A stretch of DNA of 64,000 bases, from positions 248,001 to 312,000 of the forward strand of contig JANTQA010000020.1 of assembly GCA_027625915.1 (NCBI GenBank), given 5' to 3'. How positions within the stretch are numbered: position 1 is the stretch's first letter; each line of letters starts with the position of its first letter. A program made the translations under genes and the position numbers. Positions 11,431 to 50,042 of this stretch are shown in pieces. The DNA comes from Anaeramoeba flamelloides. Lineage: Eukaryota > Metamonada > Anaeramoebidae. Under the pieces are notes generated by a model. That model was given only the letters and a program-made list of their open reading frames with translations. It did not search any database and was not told where the DNA came from.

Positions 11431-11721
11431 GATTTTATTTGGTTGATTAAAACAAACTAGAAGAAAAGTTTCTAGTTTGCTAGTCAAGATATTTTTTGTT
11501 TAAAAACAAAGAAGAACTATAAGTAACCAAACTAAGGATCTAACTGATCTGCATAGTGTAATATTTTTCTAATCCATTTCCATGAAAGGTTAATTCAATT
11601 TTTTCAAATAAATATTAACAATTTTCAACCATTTTGGAAAACAATATTTTGCAAATTTCACTTTTTTTTAAAAAATTTTTTTCTTCTTCATATCCTTACT
11701 TTTTGATACAACATCGAAGAC

Positions 11722-12930
11722 ATGAAGAAAAATTCTGACAAAAATCAAAATTTTATCTCTGAATTTGTTTCTAATCCTTTGTTCACCTTTATTTCAGATG
11801 GAAAAAATGAATTATTTCAACAAGAAACACTTTTAGCATTTGCAAATAAACAAAAGCTACAGAATTTAGGATCCAACAAGACAAAAGAACGTGATTATTT
11901 AACGAATTTGTTTCTTCCTGATTTGGGCTCTTTTGAGAACAATTCTTTCCGATCCCGGTATTATCAGGAAACAAAAAACAAAGATCAAATTGAAGGAAAA
12001 AAAGTAGATCAAGTCAAACAAAATGAAAATATATTTTCCAATTCCAACACAAAGACAGAGACAAACACCAACACAAATAGAAATACGAATACAAATTCAA
12101 ACATCAGTACAAACATAAACCCAAACCCAAATACAAATACAAAGACAAACTCAAATTCAGAATCAAAAGATAATGACTTAGCAAACACTGCTCAGCCACG
12201 AAGAATCCTGACAAGAAGTCGGAGAAAATTCCTCAAGGATCAAGGCAAAGTCGTCAATGAATTGGATGTTTCTTTGGACTTTTCTGATCAGAGCTTTGGT
12301 TTCTTCGAAAGAAAACGAAAGCCAAAAATCACAGAAAACGATCCAGTTTTCGAAAAAACAAAGACTACAGTCCGGGCTGAGCAATTGGAAAGCGAAGAGA
12401 ACGATCCCAACAGCTTTACAACCAATTGGTCTCTCAAAAAGAAAAAGAAAAGAAAAAAAAAGGATTGGCTGAAGATGGGTGTAAAGCTGACGAATGAAGA
12501 GAAACGAAGATGGAAGAAAGTGTTTGGAAAGAAATATCGGGTGCTCACAGAAAGCCAAAAACGAGAAAGAAAACGTTTGCGTGATCGGATTTCTGCAAGG
12601 TTCTCGAGACAAAAAAAAAAGGAATACATCCAAAATCTTGAAAACCAGATGAAAAAATTGCAAAATGAAAAATCCGGTGTAAACCAAAGGTTATTGGACT
12701 TAGAAAACGAAAACAAAAAATTTAAGGAACAAATTGGTCTCTTAAAACAATTGGCCTTTTCTGGATCAATAATCTCGTTATCGCAATTAAACCAATTTCA
12801 ACTAAATAACAGAACCAATCATTTTAACTTTACAATTGAAAAACAAGAACAAGAACAAGAGTTACAAGAAACAGAAAAGCAACAATTTGAAATCCAAAAA
12901 TATTCAAACAAACAATCACTATTTTATTGA
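11722..12930 (+). CDS. bZIP transcription factor
   Basis: A single exon of 402 aa starts at the first ATG after a T-rich leader. Residues about 110-147 are an Asn-Thr repeat (NTNTNRNTNTNSN). A basic cluster (KKKKKRKKK) lies near 235-246. The bZIP spans about 275-345. Its basic region reads RLRDRISARFSRQKKK, followed by heptads L306, L313, V320, L327, F334 and L341. Spacing from the Asn position to Arg and first Leu is the canonical x7/x9. Position 288, the invariant DNA-contacting Asn of the family, is Asp here, while S291, A292, S295 and R296 fit. The a positions are M310, K317, L324, N331 and I338, which would favour a dimer. The C-terminus is Gln/Glu-rich. It is inferred to be a nuclear DNA-binding regulator with altered or unknown site preference. 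Confidence 0.9.
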   Translation: MKKNSDKNQNFISEFVSNPLFTFISDGKNELFQQETLLAFANKQKLQNLGSNKTKERDYLTNLFLPDLGSFENNSFRSRYYQETKNKDQIEGKKVDQVKQNENIFSNSNTKTETNTNTNRNTNTNSNISTNINPNPNTNTKTNSNSESKDNDLANTAQPRRILTRSRRKFLKDQGKVVNELDVSLDFSDQSFGFFERKRKPKITENDPVFEKTKTTVRAEQLESEENDPNSFTTNWSLKKKKKRKKKDWLKMGVKLTNEEKRRWKKVFGKKYRVLTESQKRERKRLRDRISARFSRQKKKEYIQNLENQMKKLQNEKSGVNQRLLDLENENKKFKEQIGLLKQLAFSGSIISLSQLNQFQLNNRTNHFNFTIEKQEQEQELQETEKQQFEIQKYSNKQSLFY

Positions 12931-18540: not shown

Positions 18541-20634
18541 TTATTTTTTATTTGCTAAGAATCCAAATTTTTTTGCCATTTTGACTTTTAATTTATTTTG
18601 TATTTTGCGATATTCTTCTGGGGGGTACATATTATCCTTCACTAATTTTTGATCATCGGGATTTATCCATTCTAAAAATTTTTGATTTTTAGAAATTGAG
18701 TCCCATTTTTGGCCCATCTCCCAAACCATCAATTCTACAAGCTTATCCGAAGAAGAATTTTTCCCAACTAAAAAAAGATGGATTAAGTTGTCTTCGTCTT
18801 TTGATTGATTTACCAAATCAACTAATTTCCTTTCGCACAATTTTTTTAAATCGTTTAATTGAAAATAATCCGAGGCAACTAACAAATTTGATAACTCTTT
18901 AAATGATTTTGCGTTGGTTTTATCTGTATAAATATATTGAATGACTAATTTCATTGTTTTATTTGAAAATTTTGTTACGACAAGTTCCTTTCTATTGAAT
19001 TCAATCATTCCTGTTCTAAATAGGGATCTAAAATAATTAGATCTCATACCTAAAATTGCCTTATGAAGAGGATGCTTTGAATTGTTTTTCTTTTTATTGT
19101 TCTTTTGATTTTTCTTTTTCTTTTTCTTTTTCCTTTTTCCCTTTTCGTGTCCTTTTTCATTTTCATTTTCATTTTCATTTTCATTTGTCTTTTCCTTCCC
19201 CTTGCTATCTTTGTTTTTATATTCGTTTTCATTTTCGTTTCTCTTGTTTTTGATTAAATGCTCATCCTTTATTAAATTATTATTTGCTTGTTTGATCTTT
19301 TCAAGTTTTTTTGGTCGTCTGATTATATCTTCATCCTCATTTTGATTTTCGTTTTTATTTTTATTTTTTTTTTCTTTTGGCTTATTTTTTTCCTTCACCT
19401 TACCCTTTTCCTTTTCCTTTTCCTTTTCCTTTTCCTTTTCCTTTTCATTTTCCTTCGCCTTACCCTTTTCCTTTTCCTTTTCTTTTTCTTTTTCTTTTTC
19501 TTTTTCTTTTTCTTTTTCCTTTTGATAATTCCTTTTTCCTTTTGTTTTATTTTTTCCCTTTCCTTTTGATAATTCCTTTTTCTTTTTCAAGTTTAGATCC
19601 TTTTTTTTTTCATGTTTTTTTGTTTTATTTTTAAATCCTTTTTCCTGGTGTTGTTTTTTTTTCAATTTCTTCTTCTTCTTCTTCTTCTTCTTCTTCTTGC
19701 TCTTGCTCTTTTTTGTATTATTTTGGCAAAAAATTACAAAATCACAATTATTTTTGTGGGCTAATTCATTTTGTAAACAAGAAGTAATATCTAACAACTC
19801 CTTTTCTTTCATTTCTGCTCGCTTTCGAAATAATTTTTGGTGTTGTTCTAATAAATCAAAAGTTATTTGATTTTGGTTAATCTTGTTTTTTTTTTTTAAA
19901 GAACTCAAAAAAAAATCGCATAATCCCGTTAGACCAGAGATGCCAAAAATAATACTTAGTTGTTTCAGATCATTAAACCATTGCATTTTAGATTCTGTAA
20001 CGTTTTCACCACTAAATTCTCGGTCTCCCATATCAATTTCACCACAATAAATAAAACGTAACAATTCAACAAATAGATCAAACTCCCAATCAACTTGAAA
20101 ACAAAACTTTTCAGATTTTGATTGGTTATCATTAATTAATGTGATTCCTTCAAATTCAATCAATTTTGTTTGTTTTAAAATCTTTTTGTTTAAACTTAAA
20201 TACTGAAAAATTTCTTTAAATTTTATTGATCTTTCACATAATAAAATTTGATGTGAAAAGATACAATTATGATTATTTGAAGGTGAATTATAATTCCTTA
20301 ACAAGGATTTATTTTTTTGCTTTTCAAGTATTGTGAACCCAATTTCTTTTTCTATTTCGATTTTTTCTTCTTTTTTTTTTCCCTTTTTCCTTTTTGGTAT
20401 TTCTTTGTCATTTTCATTTTTATTTTTGTGCTCTTTTTGATTTTGATTTTCTTTTTCTTTTAGTTTTGGTTCATTTTTTCCTTTCTCCTTGACTATCTCA
20501 TTTTCCTTTTCCTTTTCCTTTTCCTTTTCTTTTTCCTTTTCCTTTTCTTTTTCCTTTTCCTTTTCCTTTTCTTTTCTTTTTCTTTTCCTTTTTCTTTTTC
20601 TTTTTCTTTTTCTTTTTTTGTTTCTTTCTCTTTT
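18541..20634 (-). CDS. RhoBTB-type protein, C-terminal part: two BTB domains
   Basis: This open frame has no ATG of its own. It starts in a KE repeat that overlaps the end of the GTPase frame (20493-21542), so it is read as the second half of the same gene. After the KE tract come the rest of BTB1 (NCIFSHQILLCERS, then LLRFIYCGEI, then LKQLSIIFGISGL) and a linker. Next is the first strand of BTB2 (NCDFVIFCQN), a Lys/Glu/Asn-rich insert of about 210 residues, then the rest of BTB2 (HPLHKAILGMRSNYFRSLF, YIYTDKT). It closes with a BACK-like tail ending in a YPPEEYRKIQ motif, like the WPPxWY segment of RhoBTBs. BTB domains dimerise and recruit cullin-3 in known RhoBTBs, so a role as a ubiquitin-ligase adaptor is a family inference. 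Confidence 0.85.
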   Translation of the reverse strand, partial: KRERNKKRKRKRKRKRKRKRKEKEKEKEKEKEKEKEKEKEKEKENEIVKEKGKNEPKLKEKENQNQKEHKNKNENDKEIPKRKKGKKKEEKIEIEKEIGFTILEKQKNKSLLRNYNSPSNNHNCIFSHQILLCERSIKFKEIFQYLSLNKKILKQTKLIEFEGITLINDNQSKSEKFCFQVDWEFDLFVELLRFIYCGEIDMGDREFSGENVTESKMQWFNDLKQLSIIFGISGLTGLCDFFLSSLKKKNKINQNQITFDLLEQHQKLFRKRAEMKEKELLDITSCLQNELAHKNNCDFVIFCQNNTKKSKSKKKKKKKKKKKLKKKQHQEKGFKNKTKKHEKKKDLNLKKKKELSKGKGKNKTKGKRNYQKEKEKEKEKEKEKEKEKEKGKAKENEKEKEKEKEKEKEKGKVKEKNKPKEKKNKNKNENQNEDEDIIRRPKKLEKIKQANNNLIKDEHLIKNKRNENENEYKNKDSKGKEKTNENENENENEKGHEKGKRKKKKKKKNQKNNKKKNNSKHPLHKAILGMRSNYFRSLFRTGMIEFNRKELVVTKFSNKTMKLVIQYIYTDKTNAKSFKELSNLLVASDYFQLNDLKKLCERKLVDLVNQSKDEDNLIHLFLVGKNSSSDKLVELMVWEMGQKWDSISKNQKFLEWINPDDQKLVKDNMYPPEEYRKIQNKLKVKMAKKFGFLANKK

Positions 20635-21542
20635 TTAATTTCTTCATTTTCCTTATTGCTTTCATCACCTTCTTCTTCTTCTTTTTCTTTTTCAATAATA
20701 TTCAGATGATCATTTTCATCTTCTGTTTTTCGTAAAATTGCCTTAATTTTTTTCAAATTGTTGGATTTAGGAAGATTCGAAGTCCACACAAATTTAACAT
20801 CACCAAACCTTGTAGTCTCCCAAGAATCGCTTTCTTTATGGAAATTGTTCTTATTGTTAATTACGAGCAAATCTTTTAACTGTTTCCTCATTTGAGAAAT
20901 CGCATTGCCGATCTGTGGCTTTGGCAACATTCTTGGCTTCTCGGGTATTGTAACAGTCAGCTTTTTTTTAAACCAAGAAGTCTTTTTTCTTAAATAGTTT
21001 GGTTCAAGGACTACACGAATGGCCGTTTCAAAAATGTCTGATAGCCCGTTTTGTGTCCTTGCAGAGCATTTTAAAAACCCTAAAGCGCCAATCTTTTTTT
21101 TAATTTTGTTTGCTTGCTTATCGCTTACAGGGTGAATGTTTTGCTCTTGCAGAAACTGGATCGTTTGTTCGTTTTCTAATAAGTCATATTTTGTACCTAC
21201 TAGCAAAATGGGTACGCCAGAACAGTATTTTTCAATCTCAGGCTTCCATTTTGTAACAATCGATTCAATAGTTTTTGGCTCAATGACAGAGAAACAAAGA
21301 AAGAACACATTTGTCTTGGAGAAGGACAACGGACGGAATCTTTGATACCAAATACCCGGTTGAGGAGTGTCCCAAACAGACAGGGCAATGGGCTTATTTT
21401 CAAATACAATTGGCGACGAAAAATTGACCCAATCAGGGACATAATCAACAGGAAACATGTTTGTGGAATAGCTAATTACTACACACGTTTTGCCAACACC
21501 AACATCACCAATTAAGACACACTTGATTTTTTCTAATTCCAT
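20493..21542 (-). CDS. RhoBTB-type protein, N-terminal part: atypical Rho GTPase
   Basis: It starts at ATG 21542 and the GTPase fold covers residues 5-180. Seen motifs: P-loop GDVGVGKT (12-19), TKYD (117-120) and CSARTQNG (159-166). Switch I has Asp37 where Rho proteins have the Mg-binding Thr. The DTAGQE motif of switch II reads DTPQPG, so the catalytic Gln is Pro62 and the Gly is Gln61. It can be expected to bind nucleotide but hydrolyse poorly, as human RhoBTB and Rnd proteins do. No CAAX box is seen. Residues about 245-256 (RFGDVKFVWTS) look like the first strand of a BTB domain, then a KE-rich tract begins. The frame ends at 20493 in basic noise. A one-base phase change of the KE hexamer repeat at 20572-20576 separates it from the BTB frame. 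Read together they give Rho-BTB-BTB. Confidence 0.88.
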   Translation of the reverse strand: MELEKIKCVLIGDVGVGKTCVVISYSTNMFPVDYVPDWVNFSSPIVFENKPIALSVWDTPQPGIWYQRFRPLSFSKTNVFFLCFSVIEPKTIESIVTKWKPEIEKYCSGVPILLVGTKYDLLENEQTIQFLQEQNIHPVSDKQANKIKKKIGALGFLKCSARTQNGLSDIFETAIRVVLEPNYLRKKTSWFKKKLTVTIPEKPRMLPKPQIGNAISQMRKQLKDLLVINNKNNFHKESDSWETTRFGDVKFVWTSNLPKSNNLKKIKAILRKTEDENDHLNIIEKEKEEEEGDESNKENEEIKKEKETKKEKEKEKEKGKEKEKKRKRKRKKKRKRKKKRKRKRKRKMR

Positions 21543-36049: not shown

Positions 36050-39000
36050 TTATTTCTTTTTTTTAGTTCTTTGCTTTTTATTCTTCTTCTTTTTTCCATC
36101 TTTCTGCTGATTATTTTTGACCTCTGTTATAAATAATTGTGTGATTAATGGTGAAAGTTTGGTTGCCTTTTCAACATTTGAAGGGGTAATTGTCATAAAA
36201 TCATAGGAAATAATGATTTTTTTGTCAGTATCAAATTCAAAACTATTTTTGCTATACCTTTGTGATAAATGTGTTAATATTGTATATTTTGCATTCATTT
36301 GGTCTGCCACTTCTATTGCCTCTGTTATTGTTGAGTGGTCTTTTTTCGTGGCAAGTTCTTGTTCATCTTTATCAAACGTTGCCTCATGTATTAATATTTG
36401 GGCATCTATTCCATGTTTAATGAGTTCTTCATTTGGCCTACCGTCACCCGAATAAACGAGTTTCAAACCATTTCTAATTAAAACTATTGCTTTAGAATCC
36501 TTGCAGTGGATCATTTCCACCTGAATTATATCATCAAAACACGAAAATAGTCCTTTATTAAGGGATAATTCTTCAGTGTATATTTTATTATTGTTATTAA
36601 TATTACTATTATTCTTATTTTCGTTACTATTATTATTTTTATATTCTTGAATCATAATTGAAAACTGATCATGTGTGAAAGTCTTAAAGGAAACTAATTC
36701 GTCTGTGATTTCAATAATATGGTTCCAATAAATGATGAAATCAGGTGGCCCGATGATTAATGGTTGCTGATAGCCATCCAAATTTCCAAATTTCTTTTTA
36801 TAGTAATTTTCTCGCATTTTTAATACTTTAATTAAACCAAGATGGTGATCAGCGTGTACATGACTTATCCAAATCAATTGAATATTTAATAGCACTTCCA
36901 TTGTCTGTAGGTCATAATTTAATAAAAGCTGCCCAAATGTACCCTCTCCTGCATCTAATAGTATATTCAAAGTTGAATCCACTTTTATTAAAATCCCAGT
37001 CACATTTCTATATTTTGAAGGCAAAGCACTTCCCGTGCCTAAAAATAAGATCTCATGAAATAATTGTTTGAGTTGATCGTTCTTTAGTAAATTTTTAAAG
37101 TCCGATATAAACTCCTGGAAGTCTATTTCCTTTTCGTCAATTGTAATTTTTTCGTTAAGCTTGTTGCCAAATTTTTGAATTAATGTTTTTTCTTCTCGTT
37201 CCTTTTTATTTTGATCTTCAGGAACGCAAATTCCAATTTTTTTTGGTCCTAAATTCATTTTGAACTTATTGTAACCAAAATGGATCAATTTTGGGTTGAT
37301 CTTTAATTGCTTTTTAACCTGATTTTGTTCTTCAACTTGCTTTTGTGCCCATTTTAAATTATTGGAAATATCTAATGGGAATATATCTTTATCAATTAAA
37401 TTCAATTGATTTCTGAAAATGAAAGATGAATAATTTGGAAATTTTGATGGCAAAATTGATGAATTGTTTAATGTTACAAAAACATGTGAAGTTTGGCCAT
37501 CAAAGCGTGAAATCCATTCTTTAAATCTTTCCTCTAATAATATTTCGTTATCAATCCAATAAAAAATCGTTCCTAGTTTCTTATTACTGTTTTCTTTCTC
37601 TTCTTTTGAGCAATAATCCGAAAAGATTTCATTAGTTAATAAACTGTCAAGTAACCTTTTATCATAAAGATCAATAATTGCAATTTGGATGCCTGGTGTG
37701 TCAGGATTAACACAATCTTCTGGATTCACCACCTTACCATCAGGTGTTTTTACAGATACTCCTTTTTTTAATAGTCCTTTTTTTTTTTTTTTTTTTTTTT
37801 TTATTTAAATTTATTAGTAGTTAAAAATTAAATTAGATTATTTTTTTTTTTTTTGATTTTTGTTTTTAATAAAAATAAAATATGAAGATATTTGATATAT
37901 GTCCCTACGACCCAAAAAACACTAAAAATGGAAAACTGATCAAATACCTTCTATTAAAAAAATTCAAAAAACTAAATGAAAAAATAAAAATAAATAAAGT
38001 TTCCATTTAACTTTTTCTTGAAAACATTTTTTTGCCAAACTCATCGAATTCAAAGTTGAAATTGTGTATATTTTTATATACAATATCTTGTTTTAACTCA
38101 TTTACTGAAGCAAATTCTAAATTATGGAAATTTTATTTTCACAAAAGGGACTATTTTGGTCTTGAAATGTTTTTTTTTTTATTTTTAAATGGTAAAATTA
38201 AAAAAAAAGTTCAACTAAAAAGATAAACTCTCTGGAAAAATCTTCTAATTTAATATATTAACTTATTCTTTGATTTCAAAATTTTCTCAACCCCATTTTT
38301 CTAAAAAAAAAAATAAAAAAGTGCTAGTAATTTCAAAAATATTTTCGATATTCAAAAGTTGAGAGTGTTTTTATTCTAAAAAATTTTATCCCAGTGTTTA
38401 ATGGAATTAAGTTAGAACCTAGATTTCGAAAAATATTAATCAGAAAAAAATAGTGCTTCATTTTATTAAGGACATATAAATAATTGTTTTATGAAAAATT
38501 ATCAAATGATCAATAGTAAAATATTCAATAAAAAAAAAAAAAAAAAAAGTTAATTTTAGTTAAAGTAAACCATTTGTCAGTCAATGGGGTAAAATGTGAT
38601 GGAGTGAATTACATCGGTTTAAAGGATTTGTATGGATATTAGAAGAACAAATAAAATTTTGGAAATTTCAAAATTAAAATCATTTTTTCATATTTTTGCT
38701 TTTTTCTTTTTTTTTTACAATTTTTTTCATTGGTAAGATAATTCATTGGCAAATTTTTTTTTTTTATTGCAATCTCTATTGTCACTTGATAAAAGCGTGT
38801 TATTCTAATGTTATTGAATCAGTGAAAACCCGAATAAAAAAAAATTTTTTTTTAACATCCATATAACATTTTTATAACAAAATTTCCTTTTACATGATGA
38901 TTTTTTCTATATTTTTTGAAAAAATAACTCATTATAACAGGCTTATAGTATGTTACAAGTTTTATAGCACATTTTATAACCAACATTCATGTTAAAAAAG

Positions 39001-40679
39001 TTTTGATTATAAAAATTTATAACATTTTAAACGTTTATAACACCTTTACAATACGTTTATAACATGTTATAAAATACTTTTTTTATTAGGGAAATAACTA
39101 AAAAAATCATATTGATTTCTATAAGAATTTTTATTTGATCTTCAATTAAAGATCAAAACGAGCATTATTGTTTTTCTCAAAGAAAACCTCAGAATATTTC
39201 GTTTTTCAATTTTTAAGTAAATATATGGAATTATTAATTTTACTTAATACAGATCCCTCAACTTTTCTTTGATGTGCGTTATTCTACTTATTTCTTATTA
39301 GTTCTTCAAAATGTCAATTATAAAAAATAATTGATATTTTTTGGAAAAAATGTTTTTTTTTGGATTCCACTTTGACTGAAACAAAATTTATTATTGATGG
39401 TATTGTATTTGAATTGAATTTATGGTGATGATGGTCGCCATAAAAAAGTGAGTAAAAAAAAAGTGTGACACAGACTACTTATAAAAATGTAAATTGAAAG
39501 AATAATTTTTTCAATTTTTTTTTGAAATTATCAGTAATTGACTTTTTTAAATCTTGTAACTCTAACAATAAAACAGTTCTTAACAAAGAATATTTTGAAG
39601 ATCAAATAATTTTACAAAGTTTCTGAACATTTAAACCCATAAAATGTTTTATTCAAAGCATAGGTAAATAAATTTATCTAAATGAAAATGAAAAATGAAG
39701 CAAAAATTTTCAAAAACTTTGTTTAATTTATCAGCAGACATCTTTACCAACAATTTTTCTCTTGAAGTTCGTTGTATTTTATAGACACTTTTGAAAACTT
39801 TTTTTATACACTTTTTGAAACAAAAATATGGCTTCTTATGTCTTAACCGTCTATTGTTGTATTTTAATTTTTTTTTTTTCAGAAATCAATTGAATTTAAT
39901 TGATAAAGATATATTCCCATTAGATATTTCCAATAATTAGAAATGGGCCAAAAACAAAATGGAAAAGAAAAAAAATGTGTATAAAAGACTAATTTCTTAC
40001 CAAATTTTTTCCCGTTTTTAATACCTAACTGTCTTGCTTTTTGAACATTTAAAGATCCCTTTTTTGGTGGCAATTCTATAATATAAGCCAAACTTGAAAG
40101 TGGTTGCTTTTGTGCTTTTCCTAACTCATTGTAAACTTTTAGAAGTTCAGTTGTATTTGAGAGATCGATTGTCTTTTTTAAATTTGTTTGTTGCGAATTA
40201 TTATTTGTCTCATTATCAAAAGATAGCAGAGTTGTTGTGAACTTTATTACCTCAACTTTTTCGTTTTCTTTTTCTTTTTCTTTTTCTTTTTCTAGTTTTG
40301 TTGGGATTGAAAATGTTGTTGAATTAGGATATTCATTAACACCCAAGACCAACAATCTGTTCCATGTGATTTGAGAAAGGGACATCAAATGGTGATAAAG
40401 GTTTGGTGGTCCATGAAGGTTTGGATATTTTGGACCAGTTTCGTCATTGAGTCCTAATGCAACACTCAATAATTGACCAGGAATGCCTGACATCCGATCG
40501 TGTTCTAGCCTTGTAAAAAAGATATTTTGAATTTTTGAAAACTTGACATTTGATTCTGGTAAAAGTCTTTGGAAACCTTCACTTGAATTAAACAAAAAAC
40601 TTTGTGATGGTAAAGAAAGAAAAAAGGATGGGTGAGATAAGTCATCCGAATTTCCTATAATTTGAAGAAAAAAGTCCAT
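36050..40679 (-). CDS. ELAC2: tRNase Z, long form (ELAC2-like)
   Basis: Two exons: 40679-40001 and 37776-36050, joined across a 2224-bp intron with donor GTAAGA. Splicing restores KKFG-LLKKGVSVKTPDG, colinear with the middle of known long tRNase Zs, and gives 801 aa, close to the human ELAC2 size. The N-terminal half is the degenerate metallo-beta-lactamase domain (NIFFTRLEHDRMSGIPGQ). The C-terminal half is catalytic: LGTGSALPS (472-480), zinc motif HVHADHH (532-538), H650 in HCKDS, D671 in SGDGRP, HEATF (690-694), H707 in HST and H729 in HLSQRY. It should cut tRNA 3' trailers endonucleolytically, in nucleus and/or mitochondrion-related organelle. Low-complexity inserts occur near 362-383 (Asn-rich in the exon-2 frame) and in exon 1 (KEKEKE). 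The basic tail is KKKNKKQ-like. The usual Thr of SGDT is Gly. Confidence 0.93.
37777..40000 (-). other. 2.2 kb intron of tRNase Z
   Basis: The intron ends, in the sense of the gene, with a run of 25 A followed directly by the acceptor G (37777-37802) instead of a pyrimidine tract. It also holds an A run near 38530 and a cluster of TTTATAACA words (38855-39085). A short coding-like stretch on the plus strand near 38565-38660 (KPFVSQWGKM, then a stop, then WSELHRFKG) is too small to call. Confidence 0.7.
38855..39085. repeat. Cluster of TTTATAACA / TGTTATAAA words
   Basis: About ten occurrences of TATAACA or its complement lie within 230 bp, including CGTTTATAACATGTTATAAA. They are irregularly spaced and in both orientations. 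Inside the tRNase Z intron. Confidence 0.6.
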
Positions 40680-40954
40680 TTTGAAAAAGTAAAAAAAAAT
40701 TAATGTTTAATTTGTTTCTGTTTATTCATTGATTTTTTATGTTTTGGTTCGAAAAAAAGAAAGGAAATTTGGGTTCACTATCATTATCAGAACACTTTTT
40801 TGATGAATTTCGTTTTCTATTATTTATTCCAAAAGTGACGTTTGAAAAAATAATTTTTTGCAAAATCTTGAATAATTTCACAAACACTTGAACATAAAAA
40901 TTAATTTTATTGTAATCTATTTATCAAATAATTGGGGTAAATTTCGAAAAAAAA
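40680..40954. other. 5' flank of tRNase Z
   Basis: AT-rich leader upstream of ATG 40679. No element or promoter motif can be named. Confidence 0.3.
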
Positions 40955-45758: not shown

Positions 45759-47684
45759 CCTAATACAACAAACTTATAAATAAAAAAAAATGTTTTGTTA
45801 TTTTCTCTTTTTGAAATTCTGTCATTTCAATTATTTAAAAAAAAAGTAAAAATGAAACTGAATTTTTCCAACTCCTTTTAAATGGTTGATTGCTTCGATT
45901 GCTACTCTTTTTTTAATCCTTAGCAAAAAATTTTTATCAAAAAATTGATATTTTTTTTGATTTCAAAAAGTAAATTGATAAGATCCAAAAGCCAAAATAA
46001 ACCTTTTTATTTGCAATAATTTTTTTTTTGATAAAGTGATCTGATATTTTTAAAAACTTGAATTTTTCACTTTATGAATTTGAATTTTCTTTCCCAAAAA
46101 AAAAACCCAAAGTCCAATTTAAACAATTTCCTCCTATATTTTTAATTTGAAAAAGTTTTGATATTTTTTCACTAATTTTTAGCTTATTTTTTTCTGACCA
46201 GAAAAGAAAAGCTTAACCCAATACAAGAACATTTGGTAAACAATATCGAATATGTTAGGTGTGGTTGATCAGAAAAATATAGCAACATTTTTTATATTTT
46301 TTCTAATATTTTTGCATGAGAAAAATAACTCTAATATATTTTTTTTTACAAAGGTAATAAAGTAATTATTTACACAAGGGTACAGTTAAACCACTATATA
46401 ATAACATATTATTCAACTTTCAAAAAAAGAATTATCATTTTTAAAATAAGTTCTTTTTTTCCCTTGGAAATTTTCAGTCAAAAGATCCTAATCCTTTTTT
46501 GGTTATGATTTTTAGATCAAAATAGAAATTGAAAAATTTACAAAAAATATTTATTTTCAAGAAAATCTCACTTTTAATAATTTCTGAGAGTCTGAAGGAA
46601 CAAATAACCTTGAAAAAATAATCTTATTTTAAAAATATCAGAAAAAAAAAACAAATATTGAATCTTATAAGATCTAAAAAATTGATCCTTAAGTTTTTAT
46701 ATAAAGATTATTTAAAATTCTTGAGATTTAAAAAATTAGGTAATACCTCTATTCAAATACCCAGAGTTTCAACAAAATTTTATTATTAAAATCATTTATT
46801 TGATAATATTTATTATTTTTTTTTTATTATGTTTATAAATTTGAATTAGTTTTTTTTGTTTTAAAATCTTTAAAAAATTGAGATATAATAATAAAAGCTG
46901 ATTGGTACTTTAAATCGTTTGGTGTTATTACAAATCAACTCAAATCGAGATTGTGTTCTTAATTTTTGATTATTAATAATCAAATTAAAAAGTATTTCAT
47001 TAAGTTTTAAGTTGAAATTTACAAGGTTTTAAATAAATATTTTGACACTATTTTTAATTAAATAGAATGATGGTTTCTCTCATTTTTGTTGTTTAAAAGA
47101 ATGAAAAAATTGAATCGAAATTGGTAATGAATCAATAAAAAAGTCGATTATTTTAAGATGTTTAAAATAATTAATGTAATTTTTTTGAAATAAAGTAGAT
47201 TTTTTAAACTGTATTATTTTAGAACTTAATGGTTTTATTTTTAAAGTGTGTTTTTAGTACACTTCCTTTATAGATATTAAGATTTCTTAAATCTTCTCTA
47301 AAAGAAAATATTTTTTTTTAAATAATTCGAAAAAATGTTGGATTTTCAACTTTTAAAAAATAAGAAAAATGGAACTAACTTTGTAAAAACAATAATTCAG
47401 ATCTGAAAATAGTATTAAAAGTAATTTTGGCATTATAGAAATTGGATTTTTACATTTTTTTCAATTTAATAAGATATGTTAAATTTTTTGAATTTACTAT
47501 TCGAGTAACCCAAGTTTTTTAACGTGAACAGTCCAATAAACAATATTTCAATTAAATGCTGAAATGCTTGATGAAAAATCCATTTCTCCTGTTAAACATT
47601 AAAACTTGTTCAAAGATATTTTTAAGTTCAAAATTTAATCATTTTTTCTTTTTTTATTTTAAAAATATAACTCTTTAGTTTCTG
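45759..47684. other. 1.9 kb intergenic, no gene seen
   Basis: AT-rich between the small minus ORF and the plus-strand DIL gene; the two are divergent, so both promoters should lie here. No motif is evident. Confidence 0.4.
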
Positions 47685-50042
47685 ATGAGCGAGAAAAAAA
47701 ACCAAACACTTTTCGACGAGAACGAAAATGAAAATTTGACTCGGCTTGATCTGGACTTTTCAAAGCCATCATCCGATTCTTCACAACCTACAAGTGATTC
47801 TGATGAATTGTTTGGTGATACTAATGATGATGAAAGTAATAGTGATGATGGCAGTGATAGTGGTAGCGGTGGCGAAGATGATAATTATCAGGATGAAGAT
47901 GAGGGTGAAGAAGAAACTGTGGATGAAATAAAAAAAGAAAAAATGCAATTTCAAAAAGAAATTATTAAGAAAAATACTGGAAATGAAAAAAAACAAAATC
48001 AAGAAACAAAAAAAGAAGAATCAGGCACAGACAATGATCAGAAATCAAACTTAAATAGGATTTTGAATAATTTAGATAGTGAAAAAGGATTTAATAATAA
48101 CGGATTACCGATGAACGGGATCGGAGAAAGCATTTCATTAAAAAATTTTACAATGAACGATTTTCTTTTCAAGGATCCACTAACAATTAAATTAAATATG
48201 ATCGAGAAGGAAGAAAAAAAAAGATTAAGAAAAGGAATTCAGCCATTAAAAAAGAAAAAACAAAAAAATGAAAAAGAAACACACAAACAACAACAAGAAC
48301 AAGAACAAGAACAAGAAAAAGAAAAAGAAAAAGAAAAAGAATTGTCTGAAGAAAACAATTATTTGGAACAATTAAAGAATGAGATTGATGAATTAAATTT
48401 AAAGGAAAATGAAACATCAAAGCTTCTAGAACAGGAAATACAATTAGACTCGATTTTAGATCTCCAAAACGATATTGTTAAAACACAAAAAAAAAGCCTT
48501 GTTTATTTAACCCTTATGAATGAACATTTTGAAAACTTGTTTTTGGAGAAATTATTATTAAACCAATTATTTTTACAATCACAGCCAAGATATTTACCAA
48601 ACGGATCACCGAATTCTGCCTGCGTGCTGTTTAAAGCATTACTTAAGTGGGACACTTTCTTCCAAATTGAATACTTTAATAATCCAATATTCAATCTAGA
48701 TTATCAATTTAACAACTCGATCCAAATTGAGAAAACACAAACACAAGATTTAAATAATTTAAAGTCTCCAAACAAATTCCATTTCAGGCAAGATCTTGTC
48801 AATATTTTTGAAAACTTTTTTTTGGATACCATTGATCATTTTAAAGAAGATATGAAAAAAAGTATTTGGTTATTTTTAAATATTGTGACTTTAATTTCGC
48901 TTGTCGAAACTTTTAAATATGACAAATATTGTAAAGAAAAAAATTCTTCTTCCCAAGAAACAAAATTAAATGGCGGGACTAATAAGAATAACAAAAATTT
49001 ATTTAACAAATCACCAAATAAGGAAATTATTAATAATTTCATTCAAATCTTAAAAAAATTATTCAATAAATCATTTAAAATAATTTGTAATGAGCATTGT
49101 TTAAAATTGATTTTGCCTTATTTTTCCAAAGGATTTTTACCATTTTCAAAATCTAACACAAATGGGATTAACGATAAAGAGAAAGAGAAAGAGAAAGAGA
49201 AACAGAAACAGAAACAGAAAGAGAAAGAGAAAGAGAAAAAAAACCAAAAACAGAAGCAAAAAGATGAACAAAAGCAAGGAAAGAAAGATCAAGGAAAACA
49301 AAAAAATATTAAAGAAAGCGCCAAATCTGCTAGAATGATCGTTAAAAAAACTCTACACAATTTCAAATCTGAATTAATTCAGAAACAAATTCCACGTGAA
49401 ATTCAAAATTTAATGATCACAGAAATCTTAAGAGTCTTAGATTTAGAATTGGTTAACCACATGTTGCTGAATGGCGAATACTGTACTTCGGGCAATGGAT
49501 TTCAAATTAAAGATTTGCTATCGCAATTGGTTGGATGGTTAAAAAAAAAACACATAATAAAAACAATAAATGATAAATTTTTGAAAATCAAGCAAGTTGC
49601 TAATTGTTTAGTAATGAAAAATTCAATTATAGAAATGCTAAAAAATAATTCTGATGAATATAAAAATATTTGCCCAGATTTAAATATTTTGCAAATTGAA
49701 CGCATATTAACAAATTTTCAAAATGATGAATGGGACTCAATACCACTTTCACAAAAAAGCTTTAATAATTTGGCCATATCTGTCGAACAGATAATAGAAA
49801 ATAAAATTAATAAACAATCACCATCATTGTCGTCATCAAAAACAACAACAACAACGGAAACATCATCACCACAGTCGTCCTCACCCTTTTCCCATTTTGA
49901 AGAAAACCAGACAATACAATCCCCCTCTGATTTTGATTTTTCTTCAATTAAAACCAGTGGCTGGAATAAAGCAAAACCTTCAGAAATTTTAAAGAAAAAA
50001 AGTAAATTTGGGTTCCTTTTTAAAGATAAATTTCTTTTTTAA
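47685..50042 (+). CDS. DIL (dilute) domain protein without a myosin motor
   Basis: Single exon, 785 aa. Residues 1-100 are acidic and Ser/Asp-rich (SDDGSDSGSGGEDD). A KE/QE coiled-coil-like segment spans about 170-250. From about 268 the chain follows the globular tail of class V myosins: ENLFLEKLLLNQLFLQ, ACVLFKALLKWDTF, KKSIWLFLNIVTLISLVETF, then, after Lys-rich inserts near 425-445 and 495-545, the core ELVNHMLLNGEYCTSGNGFQ, IKDLLSQLVGWLKKK and LNILQIERILTNF (about 585-690). The ...CTSGNGFQI... segment corresponds to the C-S-x-G-x-Q-I signature. The C-terminus is Ser/Thr-rich. There is no motor or IQ motif, so it is more like an adaptor that binds cargo or small GTPases than a motor. The exact partner is unknown. 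Confidence 0.8.
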   Translation: MSEKKNQTLFDENENENLTRLDLDFSKPSSDSSQPTSDSDELFGDTNDDESNSDDGSDSGSGGEDDNYQDEDEGEEETVDEIKKEKMQFQKEIIKKNTGNEKKQNQETKKEESGTDNDQKSNLNRILNNLDSEKGFNNNGLPMNGIGESISLKNFTMNDFLFKDPLTIKLNMIEKEEKKRLRKGIQPLKKKKQKNEKETHKQQQEQEQEQEKEKEKEKELSEENNYLEQLKNEIDELNLKENETSKLLEQEIQLDSILDLQNDIVKTQKKSLVYLTLMNEHFENLFLEKLLLNQLFLQSQPRYLPNGSPNSACVLFKALLKWDTFFQIEYFNNPIFNLDYQFNNSIQIEKTQTQDLNNLKSPNKFHFRQDLVNIFENFFLDTIDHFKEDMKKSIWLFLNIVTLISLVETFKYDKYCKEKNSSSQETKLNGGTNKNNKNLFNKSPNKEIINNFIQILKKLFNKSFKIICNEHCLKLILPYFSKGFLPFSKSNTNGINDKEKEKEKEKQKQKQKEKEKEKKNQKQKQKDEQKQGKKDQGKQKNIKESAKSARMIVKKTLHNFKSELIQKQIPREIQNLMITEILRVLDLELVNHMLLNGEYCTSGNGFQIKDLLSQLVGWLKKKHIIKTINDKFLKIKQVANCLVMKNSIIEMLKNNSDEYKNICPDLNILQIERILTNFQNDEWDSIPLSQKSFNNLAISVEQIIENKINKQSPSLSSSKTTTTTETSSPQSSSPFSHFEENQTIQSPSDFDFSSIKTSGWNKAKPSEILKKKSKFGFLFKDKFLF

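Follow-up and report, generated by a model that had tools for sequence, protein, structure and literature searches.

Organization of the locus

We analysed a 64,000-nucleotide stretch of Anaeramoeba flamelloides DNA (contig JANTQA010000020.1, positions 248,001 to 312,000; G000:C21:248001-312000 in our own numbering), hereafter the window, within a genome that was searched as 254 Mb in 76 contigs. The A+T content of the window is high, and on its minus strand lies a gene of the RhoBTB type, in which a Rho-family GTPase domain (G domain) precedes two BTB domains, distributed over two open reading frames (ORFs). ORF1 (20493..21542) has an ATG at 21542 and its own stop, and encodes the Rho-type G domain, a linker, the first strand of the first BTB domain (BTB1) and the start of a Lys/Glu repeat. 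ORF2 (18541..20634) is in a different frame, overlaps ORF1 by 142 bases and holds the remainder of BTB1, the second BTB domain (BTB2) and a C-terminal tail; its first in-frame ATG, at 20031, falls within BTB1. The two frames are open across about 3 kb, the break between them excepted.

The G domain occupies 20982..21542, with a GDVGVGKT P-loop, TKYD and CSA motifs and a Rho insert of Rac1 length. It is followed by a linker (TSWFKKKLTVTIPEKPRMLPKPQIG, 20906..20982) with 4 prolines in 16 residues, similar in near paralogs, by the first strand of BTB1 (SWETTRFGDVKFVW, 20784..20825) and by the Lys/Glu repeat in which the frame changes (20493..20668, 94% A+G). The remainder of BTB1 (19882..20271, about residues 12-141 of the structural model) was delimited by model and alignment, and the first strand of BTB2 (19726..19740, model residues 189-193) by the model. 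A low-complexity Lys/Glu/Asn insert of about 214 residues (19084..19725) separates that strand from the BTB2 core (18799..19083; Pfam, alignment and model), which carries a hydrophobic-x-E motif, MIE. A helical tail resembling BACK/3-box regions (18544..18798) contains YPPEEY (18610-18627) and K.K.AKKFG, and ORF2 terminates in GFLANKK, with no CAAX. A sequence-only reading of this DNA had proposed the order Rho, BTB1, BTB2 and YPPEEY tail on two minus-strand frames, and the order that we find, Rho - proline linker - BTB1 - BTB2 - helical tail, agrees with it, as do profile searches in which ORF1 matches Rho (PF00071, E 2.1e-30) and ORF2 matches BTB (PF00651). In the NCBIfam scan one model, a generic GTPase domain, was above cut-off.

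One gene interrupted within a repeat

That the two frames belong together, as the same reading had held, is borne out by single-frame paralogs in this genome that carry both halves. In 12 of the 19 paralogs read, a single open frame runs from G1 through the BTB region to the C-terminus. A BTB is recognised by Pfam in 11 of these 12, the exception being C48_20243, which scores 25.9 bits in the BTB2 search of the genome yet has no Pfam BTB at E 0.1. In the other seven G1 is not in the open frame, and one of them (C13_3671) has an upstream intron at DTAG. It is in the paralogs that one gene encodes the whole order, the window copy itself being frame-broken. In five near paralogs the site of SWETTRFGDVKFVW reads SWENTRFGDVEF, SWEKTRFGDLKF, SWDKTRYGDVKF, SWESTRFSDLYF and, more diverged, KKNNFSDLIF, and the strand continues in frame into sequence that is held by ORF2 in the window. 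The AlphaFold model of a single-frame paralog that served as fold reference (C37, locus L053, G000:C37:1250834-1252981) has a strand at 259-264, followed by a strand at 274-279 and the BTB1 helices. Because the near paralogs and the C37 model join a strand of this type to the rest of BTB1, the frame junction in the window splits BTB1, and the two ORFs originate from one gene.

On the minus strand the repeat (20493-20668) consists mostly of Lys and Glu codons and is less than 6% pyrimidine. We traced the coding phase through it by counting Glu codons in 60-base segments: the signal lies in the ORF1 frame at segment starts of 20625 and above, is mixed at 20610 and 20595, and lies in the ORF2 frame from 20580, placing the shift between about 20610 and 20565. 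The break is a phase slip inside the repeat, which arose either during assembly or as a genuine change of the genome.

A Rho G domain with altered switch residues

The best PDB match of ORF1 is Rac1 (181.9 bits), in an alignment that spans the Rho insert. In Rac1 numbering, G15, K16, T17, D57, T58, K116, D118, S158 and A159 are kept, and the changed residues are V12, P59, Q60, P61 and D35, the last of these calls being tied to an alignment in which switch I has a gap of one residue. In the Ras superfamily, changes at 12, 35 and 61 block hydrolysis or switching. Among the paralogs, C24_3161 and C37 keep positions 12 and 59-61 (DTAGQ in C37) and are changed at 35, C1_1565 keeps all switch residues, and C76, C41 and C13_7962 have other switch residues changed. 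From the retained P-loop Lys/Thr, TKYD and SA, the window G domain probably binds guanine nucleotide; from Val at 12 and the lack of Thr at 35 and of Gly-Gln at 60-61, it probably does not hydrolyse or switch normally. Since nucleotide-binding residues are kept and residues for switching and hydrolysis are changed, it would be a fixed binding domain.

The sequence-only reading had looked to a Ras-superfamily tree for RhoBTB affinity of the GTPase. In a G-domain tree of 50 rows the window falls within Rho (100/100), in a clade of BTB-fused paralogs with C76, C9, C24_3161 and C37 (95/90). A specific affinity to RHOBTB2 does not appear: the RHOBTB2 sequence used here and below, which is approximate (expected residues are missing at five positions), groups with C41_758 and CDC42 on long branches.

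BTB domains, tail and a putative adaptor function

The one clear Pfam BTB in ORF2 is BTB2 (PF00651, E 1.9e-17); paralog L052 and six of seven further paralogs checked have at least two Pfam BTB stretches. The largest insert of the window BTB1 follows its first strand, with a modest extra stretch between A2 and B3, where paralog C9_3316 has a long one. The hydrophobic-x-E motif of BTB2 is present in 6 of 7 alignment rows. BTB2 and tail together have a SPOP-like fold, aligning with SPOP BTB-BACK/3-box chains to about residue 569, and the tail helices span model residues 504-579 (predicted local distance difference test, pLDDT, 70-95 by block). A tail profile of 85 positions, built from the window and six paralogs, scores 18.3 bits against the approximate RHOBTB2 (17.2 for the domain), and the best of 2000 shuffles of the C-terminal part of RHOBTB2 scores 4.7. 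Against the PDB (177,635 sequences, E up to 10) it has two matches, both ribosomal proteins, the better at 13.5 bits. With the full BTB2-tail profile RHOBTB2 does not stand out from KLHL22: its best domain scores 45.8 bits (58.5 over the whole sequence, with its two BTBs), that of KLHL22 50.9 bits (51.7 over the whole sequence), so that the distinctive part is the tail by itself. A linker profile (6 rows) was tried as a bridge to RHOBTB2 and rejected, at -7.9 bits against the approximate sequence.

The hydrophobic-x-E is the Cul3-contact motif of SPOP and KLHL3 (PMC3616122). Both features of a Cul3 adaptor, a BTB with this motif and a BACK/3-box-like tail, are present in the window, which suggests Cul3 docking of the predicted BTB2-tail. 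In the mechanism that we propose, BTB2 and the tail would dock a cullin-3 ubiquitin ligase as in SPOP and KLHL proteins, the tandem BTBs would pair among themselves or with BTBs of partner proteins, and the G domain, having presumably lost its cycling, would recruit or regulate as a fixed binding domain.

Alternative readings of the window gene

We consider it likely that ORF1 and ORF2 are the halves of one RhoBTB-type gene (Rho G domain, linker, BTB1, BTB2 and BACK-like helical tail) with a single frame change in the Lys/Glu repeat and an adaptor mechanism of the kind just outlined. Several points weigh against this. The case for one gene in the window is built from genomic DNA and paralogs; the window BTB1 is weak in Pfam (E 0.033, below threshold), its support coming from model and alignment; the residue 35 call has the gap dependence noted above; and no Cul3 was identified among the 93 exon matches of a cullin search of the genome, of which two were typed, as Cul1 and Cul4. 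An automatic annotation would give a Rho GTPase gene next to a gene for a BTB protein, a division that fits the two frames and ORF1's own ATG and stop; but it would sever BTB1, ORF2 offers no ATG upstream of mid-BTB1, and both halves lie in one frame in 11 Rho-type paralogs, so we regard two genes as extremely improbable. The window gene would then be a clear example of a single gene that annotation divides where a repeat lies.

An intron in the repeat could splice out the frame change, and a GT at 20668 and many AGs are at hand for it. We nevertheless think an intron very unlikely, because the tract is less than 6% pyrimidine whereas the intron in the single paralog inspected is T-rich; nor do the paralogs read show a frame change at that place. 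Decay of a real pseudogene is harder to set aside, although we still judge it unlikely, and it is compatible with one gene: the frameshift would be genomic, and the G-domain changes would come from relaxed selection. The frame break and the changes at 12, 35 and 59-61 speak for decay and so count against a working adaptor, and the many related loci give room for loss. Yet, the break aside, neither frame is interrupted across about 3 kb, the window keeps 22 of the 23 columns that are invariant in six other BTB2-tail rows, and switch residues are altered in intact single-frame paralogs too, such as C76, C41 and C13_7962.

A family with Rho and Ras G domains

When all 113 BTB2 matches in the genome were paired with the best 123 of 149 G-domain matches (the 26 weakest left out), at least 21 loci, the window included, had a Rho-like match that precedes a BTB2 match by no more than 3 kb on the same strand; one of them, C72:947720, is weak (37 bits). 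Sequence was read for 14 of the paired loci besides the window. Five further genes read have a G domain without the Rho insert, which the tree assigns to its non-Rho part (100/100). C64_2558 among them has a whole G domain that groups with Ras and Rap (98/90); in the PDB its L030 piece matches Ral, Rap and Ras. In the other four the G domain is partial, Ras-like and on a long branch, and their placement with Ras over Rab is weak (86/35). By locus, a similar BTB2-tail module lies behind a clearly Ras-family G domain in L030/L084 and behind partial, Ras-like ones in L028, L029, L034 and L035 with L087. The contig of the window has another Rho-plus-BTB gene (G000:C21:1099453-1101702; L032, L085), whose P-loop, GDQGVGTR, is degenerate; a near copy of this gene lies on C70 (L033, L086).

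In a BTB2-tail tree the five non-Rho genes group together (91/85) inside a larger group with relatives of the window (84/83). Because of this nesting, the tree suggests that the G domain was exchanged, Rho to Ras, on the BTB2-tail module; a topology uniting the 15 Rho-type rows as one clade was not rejected (p-AU 0.079). We tentatively propose, giving the idea somewhat less than an even chance, that the RhoBTB plan has grown into a large modular family here, with a tandem-BTB module behind a Rho G domain at about 20 loci and behind a Ras-type one at no fewer than one locus and probably five others, switch residues lost repeatedly, and the GTPase part of ubiquitin-ligase adaptors either swapped or frozen; the window would then hold one of the frozen copies.

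Other features of the window and genome

Elsewhere in the window, two minus-strand frames of the lactamase fold (36050-37804 and 39879-40706; PF12706 and tRNase Z PF13691), about 2 kb apart, are probably pieces of one tRNase Z gene. The plus strand encodes a DIL (dilute) domain protein with long Lys/Glu stretches (47679-50042, PF01843) and a bZIP transcription factor (11707-12930, PF00170). Ribosomal protein L15e has 17 C-terminal matches in the genome. This agrees with a published expansion of ribosomal proteins in A. flamelloides: more than 1100 genes for them are reported, and an assembly nearly six times as large as that of A. ignava (PMC11550330).

Comparison with known systems

RhoBTB proteins are known from animals and Amoebozoa (PMC8305917, PMC1257465). 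Among open-licence PMC papers, the longer listings being covered in part, we found neither RhoBTB described from Anaeramoeba nor any Ras-BTB fusion, and the main text of PMC11550330, on A. flamelloides, has no word starting with Rho or BTB. No relatives outside this genome were found in viral_contigs or genome_contigs, in searches with single-sequence patterns able to detect close relatives only. Because the G-domain tree shows no specific RHOBTB2 affinity, we place the gene with RhoBTB on its architecture and C-terminal tail, not on its G domain, and take the tail match to the approximate RHOBTB2 as a lead. A convergent fusion, in which Rho and tandem BTBs were joined independently here and the whole is not homologous to animal and Dictyostelium RhoBTB, would account for the separation from RHOBTB2 in the G-domain tree and for the long branch of RHOBTB2 beside KLHL22 in the BTB2-tail tree. 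Similar BTB modules also stand behind Ras-like G domains here, so such fusions occur, and the tail carries no PP motif in 9 of 19 paralogs. Against convergence, the domain order is identical and the tail is shared, at 18.3 bits for the approximate RHOBTB2 versus 13.5 for the best PDB match, neither PDB match being a BTB protein; on balance we find an independent origin rather doubtful. With Anaeramoeba, a member of the Metamonada, as host, RhoBTB extends to a remote branch of eukaryotes, so that it is either of great age or was moved or re-invented, and the family of about 20 loci with its Ras-headed relatives is material for deciding among these.

Like the window gene, animal RhoBTB1/2/3 run GTPase - proline-containing linker - BTB1 - BTB2 - BACK-like helical tail, RhoBTB1/2 lack a CAAX and the G domain is atypical, in RhoBTB1/2 through Asn at 12 and a switch II deletion (PMC4931677, PMC1257465). 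Unlike RhoBTB1/2, the window retains TKxD, CSA and a Rho insert of normal length (PMC4931677), and its changes at 12, 35 and 59-61 are its own. In RhoBTB an insertion between A2 and B3 makes the first BTB bipartite (PMC1257465), whereas the large inserts of the window gene lie mainly after the first strand of each BTB. SPOP, KLHL and KBTBD adaptors of Cul3 differ: the window gene has a G domain and a second BTB, no MATH or Kelch domain was found, and the PDB matches of the tail profile by itself include no BTB protein. Dictyostelium RacA, compared by description, is likewise a protist RhoBTB with two BTBs, a Pro-rich region, a specific C-terminal region and no CAAX (PMC8305917), but Dictyostelium has one RhoBTB protein (PMC1257465), in contrast to the many loci of this genome.
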